Shown here: piece by piece, positions 16,755-43,317 of the stretch
Layout: each line of letters begins with the position of its first letter
Numbering within the stretch: the stretch's first letter is position 1
Origin: Streptomyces sp. CB01201
GTDB lineage: Bacteria; Actinomycetota; Actinomycetes; Streptomycetales; Streptomycetaceae
NCBI RefSeq assembly: GCF_002803085.1
Contig: NZ_NNBJ01000011.1
Location: forward strand, 275,161 to 339,160
Length of the DNA stretch: 64,000 nucleotides
Direction of reading: 5' to 3'
The notes under the pieces: generated by a model
What the model was told of the DNA's origin: nothing
The model's input: the letters and a program-made list of their open reading frames with translations, nothing else
Databases searched by the model: none
Program-made: the position numbers and the translations under genes

Positions 16755-16787
16755 GGCGGTGCTCCTTTTCGTGGTGGGTGGGGTGCG

Positions 16788-16856
16788 AAAACGCTGTTTC
16801 TGGGGGTCGTGGAGGTGTGGGGCGGGGCGCCTCACCTCCTCACCAAAACGCCGTTT
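16788..16856. promoter_or_regulatory. Two palindromic AAAACGCnGTTT motifs in the spacer after tra
   Basis: AAAACGCTGTTT (16788-16799) and AAAACGCCGTTT (16845-16856) lie 57 bases apart in a 151-base non-coding gap rich in GGTGGGG runs. Could be operators for the downstream small genes or a cis-acting transfer locus. No -10/-35 pair stands out. Confidence 0.4.
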
Positions 16857-16905
16857 GTGCAGGTCGCGGCCGGTGGGGTGGCTTGGTGGGGCGGTTGGTG
16901 GAAAG

Positions 16906-19059
16906 TCACCGCCCCACCTGAGCCTCACCAAGGTCGTTTACGTCGTCCTCGCGGCCGTCGAGGGCCTTCTGGACGTGGCTCAAGTGGATGACGGGGTAGC
17001 CCTGATAGGTCCCCGTGTCCTCGCCGTGATCGGTCATCAGGCGCCGCAGCCGGACGCCGTCCCAGTCGGTGTAGACGGCCGGGTTGAGGTTCTTCAGCCG
17101 GTGGATGATCTCCGGGGTGCGGACACGCTTCTCACCCGCGAGCACCCGCTCCAGATCGGCGAGATGGTCGACGTCCTCAACGGATTCCAGCGTGGGCAGC
17201 GCGGCGACGCGCAGACGGAGGGCCCTGGCACGGTCGGCGACGTCTTGAGCATCGGGCTCGGTGTCCACAAAGTGCGTGCGCACGGTCAGCGACGCCTCGC
17301 CGGGAGGGAGCGTGACCCCATCTCCGGCCACGACCAGGGTGCCCTTGTCCAGGCCCTGCCGCAGGAGATGCGGCGCCGCACCACCGTCGACGGCCTTGTC
17401 GCCAAGCGCCATCCGTGCCTGCGACTCTGTGCCCACGACCAGAGACGCCCGGATATGGGCGCCCTCGCGCACCAGCTTCGGCAGGTTCTGGTCGGTCGGG
17501 TCCTGGGTGCCCTCCCACAGCAGAACATCGACCGCCCTGCCCTGGTTGTGGATCCTGCGGGCAGCCATGAAGTACCTGCTCGTGGACTTGGAACCGCCAT
17601 ACGGGGCGCCGTCCTTGACTCGCCCGTCATCCATGACGATCTGAGTCTTGGCGGGGTTCATGAAGGCGACCTGCGCCTCGTCCACGATGACGATCAGCGG
17701 GTCCCATTTCGTGCCCGCCGGAGCCAGGAGGCGGCGGTTCATCTCCTCGACGGCATCCTCGACCATCTCCGTCACATCAACGGCGTGCTCGTCCGTCGGC
17801 CCTTCGATCAGGCGGTTCGCCATGCCGGAGAACATGCGCCAGTCGCCGATGCCCTTCAGGTCGCCGATCCAGAACTCGACCGACCGGTCGAAGGCCAACC
17901 AGAGAGCCAAGGACCGCAGCGCTGCCGTTTTGCCCTGGTTGGACAGGCCGGTGATCAGGACGTGCCGCTGGTAGAGGCTCAGCGTGACCGGCTCGCCGCG
18001 CAGATTCTGCCCCCAAGGGGCGCATCCGCTCTTGTAGTTGGCGGTCGGCTCAGGGTCGGTGACCAGCGGAGACGGCCCGATCGGCTCGTCGAGGGCGCCT
18101 GAGTCGGCGATCCACAGCTTCACGGTGCGCGGCTGCGGCGACTTGAGGATGAACACCTCGTGTTCGTGCCGGCCGAGGTTCTCGGCGAGCTTGCGGCGCT
18201 TGGGCTGGACCTCATCGGTGGAGACGCTGGAGGGCAGCGTGACGTCGACCTCGACGCCGCACCCGGCCATCGCGATCGGGGACAGCATCGACGCGCCGCC
18301 ATCCTCCATCGCCAGGATGGCCTTCTTCAGCTCGGAAATCCGCAGGTCACGGAAGGCCTTCACCACGATCGACGGGGTGATCAGCTCCCCTCCGGCGCTG
18401 CGCTGCTTCACCGGGAGCGCCCACTGCGGGGCCGTCTCGCGCTGCCGCCCAACTCCCCACAGGGACAGCAGGACCAGCCACGGCGCGGTGACGATGAACG
18501 GACCCCACACGACGGACGCGACAACAACCGCCCAATGCACCAAGTCGATGGCCGTGGCGATCGGCACCAGCACCTGAGCTGGGTCTTTCTCCGATATGGC
18601 CATGAGGACGCCGAGCCCGATCAGGCTGCCCGCACCGATTCCGGTGGCGACGGCAACACCTTTGGCCGCGTCAACCGGGGACTTGAGGAGGTCCATGCGG
18701 CGGGCGTGACGGGCGGCCCGGTACTGGCGCCCCTTCTCCTCCCACTCCTTGATCTCCTCATACTTCCCGGCCGCCTCACAGGACCGAATCATCCGCTCGT
18801 AGCGTGCGGCAGTGCGCCCGTCCCAGGCGCGGCGCCCGACGATGCGGGTCCCGCCGACGACGTACATGCCGTGCCGGACCGCGAGACGCCCCAGCGTGCG
18901 GGTGCGCTCATCGGTGATGACGTCCCTGGCGTTGCGGGCGGCCCGCCGGTACAGGGCTTCGCGGCGCTCGACCGGCGACGCGGCAGGAGCCGGCACCAGC
19001 TTCAGCGCCGGCCGCTCGTTGTCCTTGCTCAGGTTCACGGGTTCGGCGGTCGTGGTCAT
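16906..19059 (-). CDS. FtsK/SpoIIIE-type DNA translocase (TraB-like transfer protein)
   Basis: 717 residues from ATG 19059 (TGATG overlap with the spd-like gene). Hydrophobic segments at about 135-155 and 165-205 anchor it in the membrane. Walker A G-L-S-N-Q-G-K-T at 371-378 and Walker B L-I-V-I-V-D-E-A-Q ending at 462 belong to the FtsK/HerA motor class. In Streptomyces elements such proteins move double-stranded DNA between hyphae in conjugation. A role in packaging is unlikely because a normal TerL is present. Neighbouring Spd-like genes support the transfer role. Confidence 0.85.
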   Translation of the reverse strand: MTTTAEPVNLSKDNERPALKLVPAPAASPVERREALYRRAARNARDVITDERTRTLGRLAVRHGMYVVGGTRIVGRRAWDGRTAARYERMIRSCEAAGKYEEIKEWEEKGRQYRAARHARRMDLLKSPVDAAKGVAVATGIGAGSLIGLGVLMAISEKDPAQVLVPIATAIDLVHWAVVVASVVWGPFIVTAPWLVLLSLWGVGRQRETAPQWALPVKQRSAGGELITPSIVVKAFRDLRISELKKAILAMEDGGASMLSPIAMAGCGVEVDVTLPSSVSTDEVQPKRRKLAENLGRHEHEVFILKSPQPRTVKLWIADSGALDEPIGPSPLVTDPEPTANYKSGCAPWGQNLRGEPVTLSLYQRHVLITGLSNQGKTAALRSLALWLAFDRSVEFWIGDLKGIGDWRMFSGMANRLIEGPTDEHAVDVTEMVEDAVEEMNRRLLAPAGTKWDPLIVIVDEAQVAFMNPAKTQIVMDDGRVKDGAPYGGSKSTSRYFMAARRIHNQGRAVDVLLWEGTQDPTDQNLPKLVREGAHIRASLVVGTESQARMALGDKAVDGGAAPHLLRQGLDKGTLVVAGDGVTLPPGEASLTVRTHFVDTEPDAQDVADRARALRLRVAALPTLESVEDVDHLADLERVLAGEKRVRTPEIIHRLKNLNPAVYTDWDGVRLRRLMTDHGEDTGTYQGYPVIHLSHVQKALDGREDDVNDLGEAQVGR

Positions 19060-19832
19060 CAGTTGTATCCCCCTCCGCCTTGGCCGACGGCGGTAGGTCC
19101 GGCCGGGCGCTCGGGGCCAGGCGTCGTGTCGAGGGCGGCGCGGCGGACGCGCCGGCCGTAGGAGTCGCCGGTACCGAGCCGGTTGCCGATGGCGGTACCG
19201 GACAGGTCCGGGTCGGCTTGCAGCCACCCGGTGGCGGTGCGGACGTGCTCCTCGAAGCTGGCGGTACTCGTCTTCGCGGTACCGGTCTTCTTGGCGGTCT
19301 TGCGGGCCGGTACTCGGCTGGAGCGCCGTACCGGTACCGGGGTCGCGGTCATCTCCGGTACGGCGGTGAGTTCCGGGCGTGCCGGTACCGCCTCCGGTAC
19401 CGGTACTCGCTCAATGTCTGCGGCCGGTACCGCCCCGGCACCGGTACCGGGCTTGGCCTGCTTCTTTGTGGCCGGTACCGCCAGTGCGTGGACCCGCCAG
19501 ATCGACAGCGGTACCAGCAGCGAAACGGCCGCCACGAGCGGTACCGACACGGCGACAACATGGGCGGCGAGCATGTGCGCGGCGACCTGCGCGGTACCCA
19601 TCAGCACGAGGGAGAGAGCGATGTCCCGGCCGCGCGCCCGACGGATCGCGGCCACCACATAGACGTCGAGGGCGAGGGGCAGCAGTACCGCCACCGGTAC
19701 CGCCGCGCCGATCGTGCGGGCGAGATCGTATTCGGCGGTCGCGGTGAACCCGACGCCCGCCACCAGAGAGACAGCGACGAGGGGGTCCCAGCCGGTACCG
19801 GTACGAGTACCGGTCTCCTGGGTCGTGCTCAT
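19059..19832 (-). CDS. SpdB2-like integral membrane transfer protein
   Basis: 257 residues from ATG 19832 (ATGA overlap upstream). Four hydrophobic helices within residues 15-115, then a Pro/Val/Ala-rich linker with A-R-K-T-A-K-K-T-G-T-A-K-T and a C-terminal W-L-Q-A-D-P-D-L-S-G-T-A-I-G helix-turn-helix-like end. Layout matches Spd proteins that work with the TraB motor in intramycelial spread. Codon use is odd: valine before proline is almost always GTA-CCG, giving a dense array of GGTACC. Confidence 0.75.
   Translation of the reverse strand: MSTTQETGTRTGTGWDPLVAVSLVAGVGFTATAEYDLARTIGAAVPVAVLLPLALDVYVVAAIRRARGRDIALSLVLMGTAQVAAHMLAAHVVAVSVPLVAAVSLLVPLSIWRVHALAVPATKKQAKPGTGAGAVPAADIERVPVPEAVPARPELTAVPEMTATPVPVRRSSRVPARKTAKKTGTAKTSTASFEEHVRTATGWLQADPDLSGTAIGNRLGTGDSYGRRVRRAALDTTPGPERPAGPTAVGQGGGGYN
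19170..19799. repeat. Cluster of 14 GGTACC palindromes within the spd-like gene
   Basis: I count 14 GGTACC hexamers, usually as CGGTACCG, plus several near matches (GGTACT, AGTACC). They occur in several reading contexts: Val-Pro as GTA-CCG and Gly-Thr as GGT-ACC. At about 70 percent GC fewer than one is expected in this length. Confidence 0.85.
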
Positions 19833-41647: not shown

Positions 41648-42100
41648 ATGACTATGTCGCCGGTGCTGCGAATCGCTGAGATGGGGACGCGCTACGCGCC
41701 CGCCGAAATCCTGGAAGGCCTGGGGATCCCCGTACAGAGGGCCTGGTTGCGCGACACGTGGGGGGCGTGGTCCGAAGAGAAGCGCTGCGTCGTCGTAGCT
41801 GCCGGCCTCAGCCGCGTGCAGGAACGCTGTGTGCTCGCCCACGAGTTGGAGCACGTCCTCGCCCACGATGCTGGCTGCGACGGCACGTTGAGAACTGTGC
41901 GCCAAGAGCGCCGCGCCGACATCGAAGCCGCCCGTAAACTCGTAGCCATCTCGGACCTGGCGCAGGTGGCGCAGTGGGCGCCGGACCTCTTCGCGGCAGC
42001 GGCCGAACTCGACGTGACGGAGCGCCTCTTGCAGGTGCGATTGAGCGACCTCAAGGGGGAGGGCTGGCCATGGCGGGCTACATTGAAGATCGCTGGCTGA
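41648..42100 (+). CDS. ImmA/IrrE-family metallopeptidase
   Basis: 150 residues. Zinc motif H-E-L-E-H at residues 65-69 with the following A-H-D and an R-R-A-D-I-E-A helix typical of the family. In ICEBs1-type systems ImmA cleaves the repressor on DNA damage or cell signalling. Here the repressor gene lies directly upstream. The gene overlaps the integrase start by 31 bases, so the two are co-translated. Confidence 0.85.
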   Translation: MTMSPVLRIAEMGTRYAPAEILEGLGIPVQRAWLRDTWGAWSEEKRCVVVAAGLSRVQERCVLAHELEHVLAHDAGCDGTLRTVRQERRADIEAARKLVAISDLAQVAQWAPDLFAAAAELDVTERLLQVRLSDLKGEGWPWRATLKIAG

Positions 42101-43317
42101 ACAAGCGCAAGGACCCCGTCACGGGGAAGCGGGAGCGCACCGCGCTGTGGGGTAAGTGCAAGCGCTACAAGGTATCCGGTATCCCTGGGGTGCGCTCCAG
42201 GTCGTTCGACGTGCTCGAAGAGGCGAAGATCTGGAAAGCCAAGGCGATCATCGACAGCAAGCGCAAGGAGTTTGTCGACGACCGCGACGGGGCCATCCTG
42301 CTCGGCGACTACATCGAGAACGAGTGGTGGCCGACACGCAGTGACCCCGCCGGAACGGCCATCACGATGAAATCGAAGATCTGGCGGCACGTCATCGGTA
42401 CCGCTCTTGGGCGCCAGCCGATGAATGTCATCGGGGACAGGCAGCTGGTCAATTGGCAGAAGGAGCTGCGCGCGCGTGGGTTGGAGGCCTACACGATCGA
42501 GGTGATCTGGAATCACCTCAGCTCCATCTTCAAGTCGGCCACCGGATCGCGGATCGCGAAGAATCCGTGCAGGGAGGCCGGCTCCGAGACTAGGCCGCCG
42601 AAGGCCGGAGAAACCAAGGCGCGCGCCTGGTTGCCAGAGGAGGTGCTGGCGATCCGCAACGGCCTGGCCGACCGGTACCAGGTCGTCGCCGACCTTGGCA
42701 TGGGCGCAGGCCTGAGGCAGGCTGAGGTGATCGGGTTCAGTTTGGACGACATCGACGAGAGCCGGATGCTGATCACGCTGCGGCGCCAGCTGCTGTGGGA
42801 GAACTCCTCCCGCCCCTATTTCAAGCTGCCTAAGGGCAAGAAGGAGCGGAACATCCCTCTCTCCGCCGGGCTGCTCAAGGCGATCAAGGCCCACGCGGAG
42901 AAGTACCCGCCGGTCACCGTCACCCTGCCGTGGCAGGGGCCTGGGAACGACGGGCGAAAAGAAGCATCGGTCGGCCTGTTGGTCACGACGGCCTATGGGA
43001 ATCGGATCAACCCGAGCGTCTACAACAACAAGAACATGAAGCCTGCCCTCGTGTCCGCCGGCCTTCTGGCGCCGCGGAGCGAGGATGGCAAGGAGGGCTG
43101 GGGCTGGGAGCCGTCGCGGGAGAGGATGCATCACCGCTTCCGCCACACCTACGCGAGTGTTCAGTTGCAGGCTGGTGAGGATCCGGTGTCGCTGTCACAC
43201 TGGATGGGTCACGCCTCGCCAGAGACGACCTTCCGGATTTACGCGCACTTCATGCCTGACCGGGGGCAGCGGGGGCGGACCGCGATTGACGCCTGGTTGC
43301 AGGCGAGCACCCGCTGA
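42070..43317 (+). CDS. int: Tyrosine site-specific integrase
   Basis: 415 residues from ATG 42070 (GGGGGAGGG RBS). Catalytic positions: Arg216 in G-A-G-L-R-Q-A-E, His355 and Arg358 in H-H-R-F-R-H-T, His381 in W-M-G-H, Tyr391 in R-I-Y-A-H-F. N-terminal part resembles the arm-binding and core-binding domains of phage integrases. Last prophage gene; about 130 bases separate its end from the chromosomal dehydrogenase gene, so it presumably recombines there. Confidence 0.95.
   Translation: MAGYIEDRWLNKRKDPVTGKRERTALWGKCKRYKVSGIPGVRSRSFDVLEEAKIWKAKAIIDSKRKEFVDDRDGAILLGDYIENEWWPTRSDPAGTAITMKSKIWRHVIGTALGRQPMNVIGDRQLVNWQKELRARGLEAYTIEVIWNHLSSIFKSATGSRIAKNPCREAGSETRPPKAGETKARAWLPEEVLAIRNGLADRYQVVADLGMGAGLRQAEVIGFSLDDIDESRMLITLRRQLLWENSSRPYFKLPKGKKERNIPLSAGLLKAIKAHAEKYPPVTVTLPWQGPGNDGRKEASVGLLVTTAYGNRINPSVYNNKNMKPALVSAGLLAPRSEDGKEGWGWEPSRERMHHRFRHTYASVQLQAGEDPVSLSHWMGHASPETTFRIYAHFMPDRGQRGRTAIDAWLQASTR

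Follow-up and report, generated by a model that had tools for sequence, protein, structure and literature searches.

The SpdB-like gene of a Streptomyces prophage holds, inside its own coding sequence, 22 sites with at least half of a short palindromic word. Sequence comparisons suggest that this GGTACC array consists of binding sites for the helix-turn-helix (HTH) domain of the SpdB protein itself and forms a candidate DNA-to-membrane tether at spdB (probability roughly 0.7). It is very probable that the sites are putative targets of the gene product's own HTH, and the odds that the array acts as a putative tether fall slightly short of even; the two estimates overlap, as a rival reading of the array as self-control shares the own-HTH part.

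The host element and its SpdB-like protein

The window (the whole 64-kb stretch of DNA analysed) includes the following phage genes.

5622-12010, minus strand: phage head and packaging module (capsid, prohead protease, portal, TerL, TerS)
41974-43317, plus strand: phage-type (tyrosine) integrase

Genes for TerL, TerS, portal, prohead protease, capsid, and integrase are those of an HK97-type prophage, and their presence marks the element as a prophage and not a plain conjugative element. This prophage, at positions 1-43317, also bears a TraB-like motor and an SpdB-like protein, i.e., transfer genes of the conjugation type. An IMG/VR virus record (L195/L284) shares its HTH and its array spacing with the window; a tblastn search of TraB and SpdB against phage records gave no match.

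19059-19832, minus strand: SpdB-like gene, 257 aa, with four predicted membrane helices, a linker, and a C-terminal HTH (open reading frame, AlphaFold2)
19479-19784, minus strand: four predicted membrane helices, residues 17-118 (AlphaFold2, moderate confidence)
19125-19256, minus strand: three-helix HTH, residues 193-236 (AlphaFold2, confident)
19125-19166, minus strand: third HTH helix, residues 223-236 (AlphaFold2 and class comparison)

The AlphaFold2 model of SpdB, built on a 16-row alignment (mean pLDDT 69.5), places helices at residues 17-40, 45-64, 68-89, 97-118, 193-206, 212-219, and 223-236, with a low-confidence linker at residues 119-192; the HTH modelled alone reached a mean pLDDT of 83.3, with 37 of 58 residues at 90 or above. 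The four predicted helices agree with the multi-pass membrane character of Spd-type proteins. A Pfam search returned no family at E <= 0.001, so the protein is not assigned to DUF2637 (PF10935); a relative, L202, does match DUF2637 (25 bits, cut-off 22.8). Foldseek found no match of the HTH in the PDB at E <= 0.001, and a second structural comparison returned the HTH domains of FapR, Lrp-like, and DeoR proteins (Z 5.2-5.8), which would reflect a common arrangement only.

The GGTACC array

19169-19812, strand not assigned: array of 22 CGGTACCG/CGGTAC sites, 14 of them exact GGTACC (counts and synonymous shuffles)

The packing of GGTACC is under DNA-level selection and is confined to the gene. 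Counting confirmed the 14 copies in about 630 bases (19170-19799) reported by an earlier reading of the letters alone (the sequence-only reading); all lie inside the minus-strand gene, and 12 extend to CGGTACCG, an 8-bp palindrome. The entire window has 30 GGTACC, against a mean of 8.89 and a maximum of 17 in 100 shuffles. GTAC occurs 22 times in the gene, always within 19171-19810. With a site defined as at least one CGGTAC half-site, the 22 sites fall in the parts of the gene coding for the membrane domain (8), the linker (12), and the HTH (2), and the density of CGGTAC is 43.9 per kb in the gene and drops to 0.8 per kb over the 3 kb flanking it on either side.

Significance was assessed by swapping synonymous codons inside each gene, which keeps the protein and its codon counts fixed; the window gene entered this test as 882 bp, including 36 extra upstream codons. 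CGGTAC on both strands was found 34 times versus 6.7 in the shuffles, and GGTACC 14 times versus 3.0 (p = 0.005 for each, the minimum attainable with 200 shuffles). The sites are also split between two codon frames out of three (9 in one, 13 in the other), which bears out the earlier observation that the hexamer arises in differing codon contexts. The excess over synonymous shuffles and the use of two frames together indicate that GGTACC is kept at the DNA level, as the sequence-only reading had proposed. Its remarks on codon choice hold across the six genes with the TGDSYGRR tip (see below): valine before proline is GTA in 53 of 63 cases versus 19 of 140 valines elsewhere, and glycine before threonine is GGT in 39 of 40 cases versus 7 of 87 glycines elsewhere.

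In the membrane-coding part, all six sites are common to the window and the related locus G295, and 30 of 93 codons for identical residues differ. The comparison of synonymous changes that had been suggested as a check gave a weak signal in the direction of conservation, in that 0.29 of site codons differ versus 0.38 (p = 0.044, from ten homolog pairs that are not independent). Pooled site spacings from 31 genes of the HTH class, which are related to one another, favor 10.75 bp over frame-keeping jitter; this preference was not found in the window's own array and is given no weight here. In the host genome CGGTACCG occurs ten times as pairs no more than 30 bp apart, five of them in the SpdB-like gene. 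Elsewhere in that genome, four CGGTACCG lie within 68 bp in a Gly-Thr-rich stretch (G000:C1:785350-785417; L315).

The word follows the SpdB HTH across relatives

A search with the HTH found matches in 11 of 392 genus genomes and at 25 viral loci, and plasmid L309 was found separately. The resulting set of 35 genes leaves out L274 (a second copy of the window) and L283 (a far HTH), and includes two near-identical pairs (L280/L300 and L306/L307). Residue 222, just before the third HTH helix, is glycine in the window and serine in the larger class of genes, named here for its word CGGAACCG. All six genes with the TGDSYGRR tip (L284, which is the window; L285; L286, which is G295; L287; L288; and L309) carry a CGGTACCG array, with 25-35 CGGTAC and 1-2 CGGAAC per gene, and 28 of the 29 S-tip genes carry a CGGAACCG-type array, with 12-22 CGGAAC and 0-3 CGGTAC per gene, although such gene counts overstate independence because the genes are related. 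The S-tip exception, L308, has 4 CGGAAC and 1 CGGTAC.

At p <= 0.01 in the shuffle test, 34 of the 35 genes pass with 6-mers and 30 with 8-mers, versus 1 and 3, respectively, of 30 canonical chromosomal DUF2637 genes; five other segments of the window gave none with either word length. L258 is the sole canonical DUF2637 gene that passes with 6-mers, its word being CTGTGAAC in 8 copies. Of a further 25 SpdB-like genes that have a different HTH, the 6-mer test gave a pass for 16 and the 8-mer test for 11, and their words differ: GTCTCA (L046, L052), CTCTCA (L061), CGTACA (L043, L044, L047, L055, L065), and GGATAC (L048, L053), for example. An array at p <= 0.01 (6-mers) was not found in the other 9 of the 25, which include L037-L039; the membrane parts of these three are the closest to that of the window, their HTH is different, and they lack the GGTACC hexamer. 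The sequence-only reading would have given up recognition if homologs lacked the hexamer and kept the protein; L037-L039 do keep the membrane domain without it, and homologs with the same HTH have it.

An order-wide search matched 11 of 391 genomes and added seven new loci. The new S-tip genes carry CGGAAC in three of three cases, as predicted beforehand, and L366 and L367, which have another HTH, carry GGCTCA (p = 0.005). The loci of this search include no new TGD-tip gene, and a second viral scan yielded no loci beyond those already found.

Exchanges of domains separate the two ends of the protein. L301 and L295 are 87% identical in the HTH and 23% in the membrane part, and CGGAAC is common to both; plasmid L309 and the window are 78% identical in the HTH and 37% in the membrane part, and share CGGTAC. 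L041 shows the reverse, with a membrane part 66-70% and an HTH 11-27% identical to those of 16 CGGAAC genes, and its word is a different one (motif cosine 0.01-0.03). L291 has no clear membrane part in the frame taken. In the clear swaps the word appears to stay with the HTH and not with the membrane domain; exceptions exist.

A Mantel test began from 60 genes, from which 10 without the TM anchor and 2 near-duplicates were removed; the 40 of the remaining 48 that have significant arrays were used. Motif similarity showed a partial rank correlation of 0.419 with HTH similarity (permutation p 0.0005) and of 0.316 with membrane-part similarity (p 0.0005); the latter is what relatedness would give. 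For pairs with HTH similarity of at least 0.5 and membrane similarity below 0.35, 13 of 14 cross the sister words (cosine 0.00-0.13), and the sole word-sharing pair is L286-L309 (cosine 0.82).

Several genes depart from the pattern. L308 and its near copy L364 have the YGRR HTH, an S tip, and no clear array (p = 0.095 and 0.040). L365, with a VGD tip, has weak GGAACC (6 copies, p = 0.095), and L202, in which an HTH-like stretch picked by eye (SPTSGWGRQ) lies ahead of the DUF2637 part and the tip is not TGD, has a CGGTAC array (29 versus 6.8, p = 0.003); these two genes indicate that a single tip residue does not set the word. Within one HTH class the change of the tip from S to G accompanies a change from A to T at the center of the word, with exceptions outside the class. 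As far as the compared genes tell, a change of HTH goes with a change of word, also where the motors are dissimilar and, in the clear swaps, where the membrane domains differ.

A proposed tether and its main rivals

In the proposed mechanism, the C-terminal HTH of SpdB would recognize the CGGTACCG palindrome, and the location of 22 sites inside the spdB coding sequence would allow gene and sites to move as one cassette. The four helices would anchor SpdB in the membrane, with the HTH carried on the flexible linker; a single stretch of the element would, through its many sites, collect a large number of SpdB molecules, and these would hold the DNA to the membrane at the spdB locus. The FtsK/TraB motor, for which the traB end carries a different candidate word, or some other process could then act at the tethered DNA; the array may serve in spread or in segregation, or may control spdB itself. 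Sites within the gene would hold protein and target together through recombination, including the mosaic exchange of phages and plasmids. If this is true, SpdB-like proteins own specific addresses, which would explain how they locate their own element. The regulator-binding array suggested by the sequence-only reading comes closest of its proposals; the likely binder is the gene's own product.

The main rival to tethering is a self-control operator array, in which SpdB binds its own gene and blocks transcription with no tethering; this account has the own-HTH core in common with the preferred one and is unlikely. It agrees with the confinement of the sites to the gene and with the binding of SpdA2 to palindromes inside its own gene, as described in PMC4170104. 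However, 12-22 sites distributed along the coding sequence are more than an operator would be expected to have, and this reading offers no role for the four predicted membrane helices. Tethering and self-control can coexist.

A replication origin or other nucleoprotein hub, at which an initiator would read the array and SpdB would be an accessory, is a quite improbable account. Some phage initiators that bind repeats in their own gene, such as lambda O, offer a parallel for it, but the word varies with SpdB's own HTH.

The TraB motor and its candidate clt

16906-19062, minus strand: TraB/FtsK-like motor gene, 718 aa, adjoining the SpdB-like gene (FtsK_SpoIIIE match)
16777-16929, strand order + + - - + + -: candidate TraB clt, seven GGTG[AG]GG (GGTGRGG)

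The window TraB matches FtsK_SpoIIIE at E 6.3e-5 (23 bits, just below the cut-off of 24), and 85 of 295 genus genomes, its own among them, contain a match to it at E <= 1e-30. The sequence-only reading had suggested that the GGTACC array is a clt, i.e., recognition repeats for the adjacent TraB motor. TraB is indeed encoded directly beside spdB, and short repeats are what TraB motors read (PMC4170104, PMC3583192), but this reading is very improbable and was rejected on several grounds. In none of the 29 closest TraB relatives retrieved does GGTACC exceed one copy per 700 bp over some 5 kb around traB; the GGTACC sites lie inside spdB (19169-19812) and not at the traB end, where a different word is found in the window and in all 69 relatives examined; and GGTACC arrays occur next to a dissimilar motor (G295) or with no homolog of the six motor queries in the covered flank (L285, L309). 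Nor did GGTACC track the TraB winged-helix region: C-terminal identity to the window TraB is 28% in L288, and 28-40% in the 22 relatives (of 29) lacking GGTACC that were compared. L288, whose TraB is 60% identical to that of the window, bears both arrays: CAGGGAGG lies around the end of traB and CGGTACCG within spdB.

The word at the traB 3' end is CRGGGAGG in 69 of the 69 relatives examined (29, L007-L035, and 40, L317-L356; more distant matches lie outside this sample), with at least three copies within 240 bp in 67 of them and a density of 19.6 per kb versus 0.21 per kb farther downstream. Many loci have a common layout of 0 (+), 23 (+), 51 (-), 64 (-), 97 (+), 105 (+), and 172 (-). Loci in which the C-terminal wing loop of TraB reads SHG have mostly CGGGGAGG (17 of 17), and those with S[DEN]G (SDG, SEG, or SNG) have mostly CAGGGAGG (52 of 52); the CRGGGAGG array is thus a candidate clt with a recognition code tied to the TraB wing loop, and such a candidate is now available for the 69 examined relatives of a TraB that is common in the genus. 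The wing loop of the window TraB differs (GEDTGTYQG). Its GGTG[AG]GG words, at -24 (+), -13 (+), 14 (-), 27 (-), 61 (+), 69 (+), and 122 (-) from the traB end, have the same strand order as the CRGGGAGG array of the relatives, and are a candidate clt of the window TraB; the seven copies in 240 bp compare with 0.21 expected, a figure that is not a fair test as the word was chosen after reading the sequence.

Motors beside SpdB arrays were surveyed with six motor queries at 25 loci (L285-L309), over flanks of about 3 kb (about 6 kb for L309). A motor homolog was found in the covered flank at 5 of the 25 loci and at none of the other 20; the loci may still have ATPases outside the six-query census, such as the Walker-A open reading frame of L292. 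At the motor end, G295 has the words GTCACA/GGTGTGA, and L287 has RGGGAGGC after the motor gene (both picked by eye); elements with GGTACC arrays thus seem to differ in their motor words. An HNH endonuclease gene lies downstream of L306, and several further loci have a terminase-like gene (by eye), as does the window. On this survey, motors appear not to be needed for SpdB arrays.

Other GGTACC-rich loci and a possible wider class

Pattern scans for GGTACC found at least 118 stretches in genome contigs and 31 in viral contigs; of these at least 149, 15 were inspected, and several proved to be plain low-complexity repeat genes. Such genes lend something to the suggestion, also made by the sequence-only reading, that Val-Pro and Gly-Thr repeats of a low-complexity linker yield the word by chance, as L104 and L083 hold GGTACC clusters and L114 has p = 0.49 with the protein fixed, but this protein-level drift is scarcely credible and was rejected, being contradicted by the synonymous-codon shuffles, by sites in two frames and in the membrane- and HTH-coding parts, and by the use of GGAACC in sister genes. 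L114 was dropped as evidence for GGTACC arrays. Two IMG/VR records have arrays without the YGRR HTH: a 1.7-kb open frame with 39 GGTACC (L207:3389-5071, in a 166-kb record; p = 0.003), and a gene with 9 GGTACC (L213:2-886, in a 35-kb record; p = 0.003) whose product is hydrophobic with a C-terminal IclR-type HTH. From these two arrays, other HTHs may share GGTACC.

A broader proposal, drawn from comparison of sequences, is tentative, its odds lying somewhat below even: the SpdB-like proteins of actinobacterial phages and plasmids may represent a large class of self-addressed genes, each with about 8-22 targets of its own HTH inside its coding sequence, whose words (CGGTACCG, CGGAACCG, GTCTCA, CGTACA, GGATAC, GGCTCA, and others) would diversify together with the HTH by domain shuffling. 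These proteins would act as mobile centromere-like membrane anchors, and TraB with its clt would be a second self-addressed pair, giving each element two private DNA addresses.

Comparison with known systems

No description of site arrays inside spdB or DUF2637 genes was found in the open-access literature, which leaves aside most subscription journals. ParB-parS and some phage initiators, such as lambda O with repeats inside its own gene, likewise have arrays of sites within or close to the gene that encodes the binder; neither ParB-parS nor these initiators are known to be membrane-anchored.

SpdB2 of pSVH1, an integral membrane spread protein that interacts with TraB, resembles the window SpdB by description as a membrane spread protein; its DNA binding is reported as non-specific (PMC4170104).

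SpdA2 of pIJ101 and other Streptomyces plasmids binds sps palindromes within the spdA2 coding region; sps is 12 bp long and present as a rule in 2-3 copies (PMC4170104). The window array is alike in that an element-encoded, putative DNA-binding protein has short palindromic sites in its own coding region. In contrast to SpdA2/sps, the palindrome of the window is 8 bp long, with 12 exact copies among 22 sites, its protein has predicted membrane helices, and words of its type vary with the HTH; the SRDD/E motif described at sps in the same source is absent, by eye, from the window translation.

TraB with clt/TRS shares with the SpdB array the copies of a short word, an HTH-type domain, a link to a membrane-associated transfer protein, and a word that changes with the domain; the candidate clt is found at the end of traB, whereas the GGTACC array is within spdB and varies with the HTH of SpdB. 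The nearest precedents are SpdA2/sps for sites within the protein's own gene and TraB/clt for a word that follows the protein, and the array appears to fit neither family.
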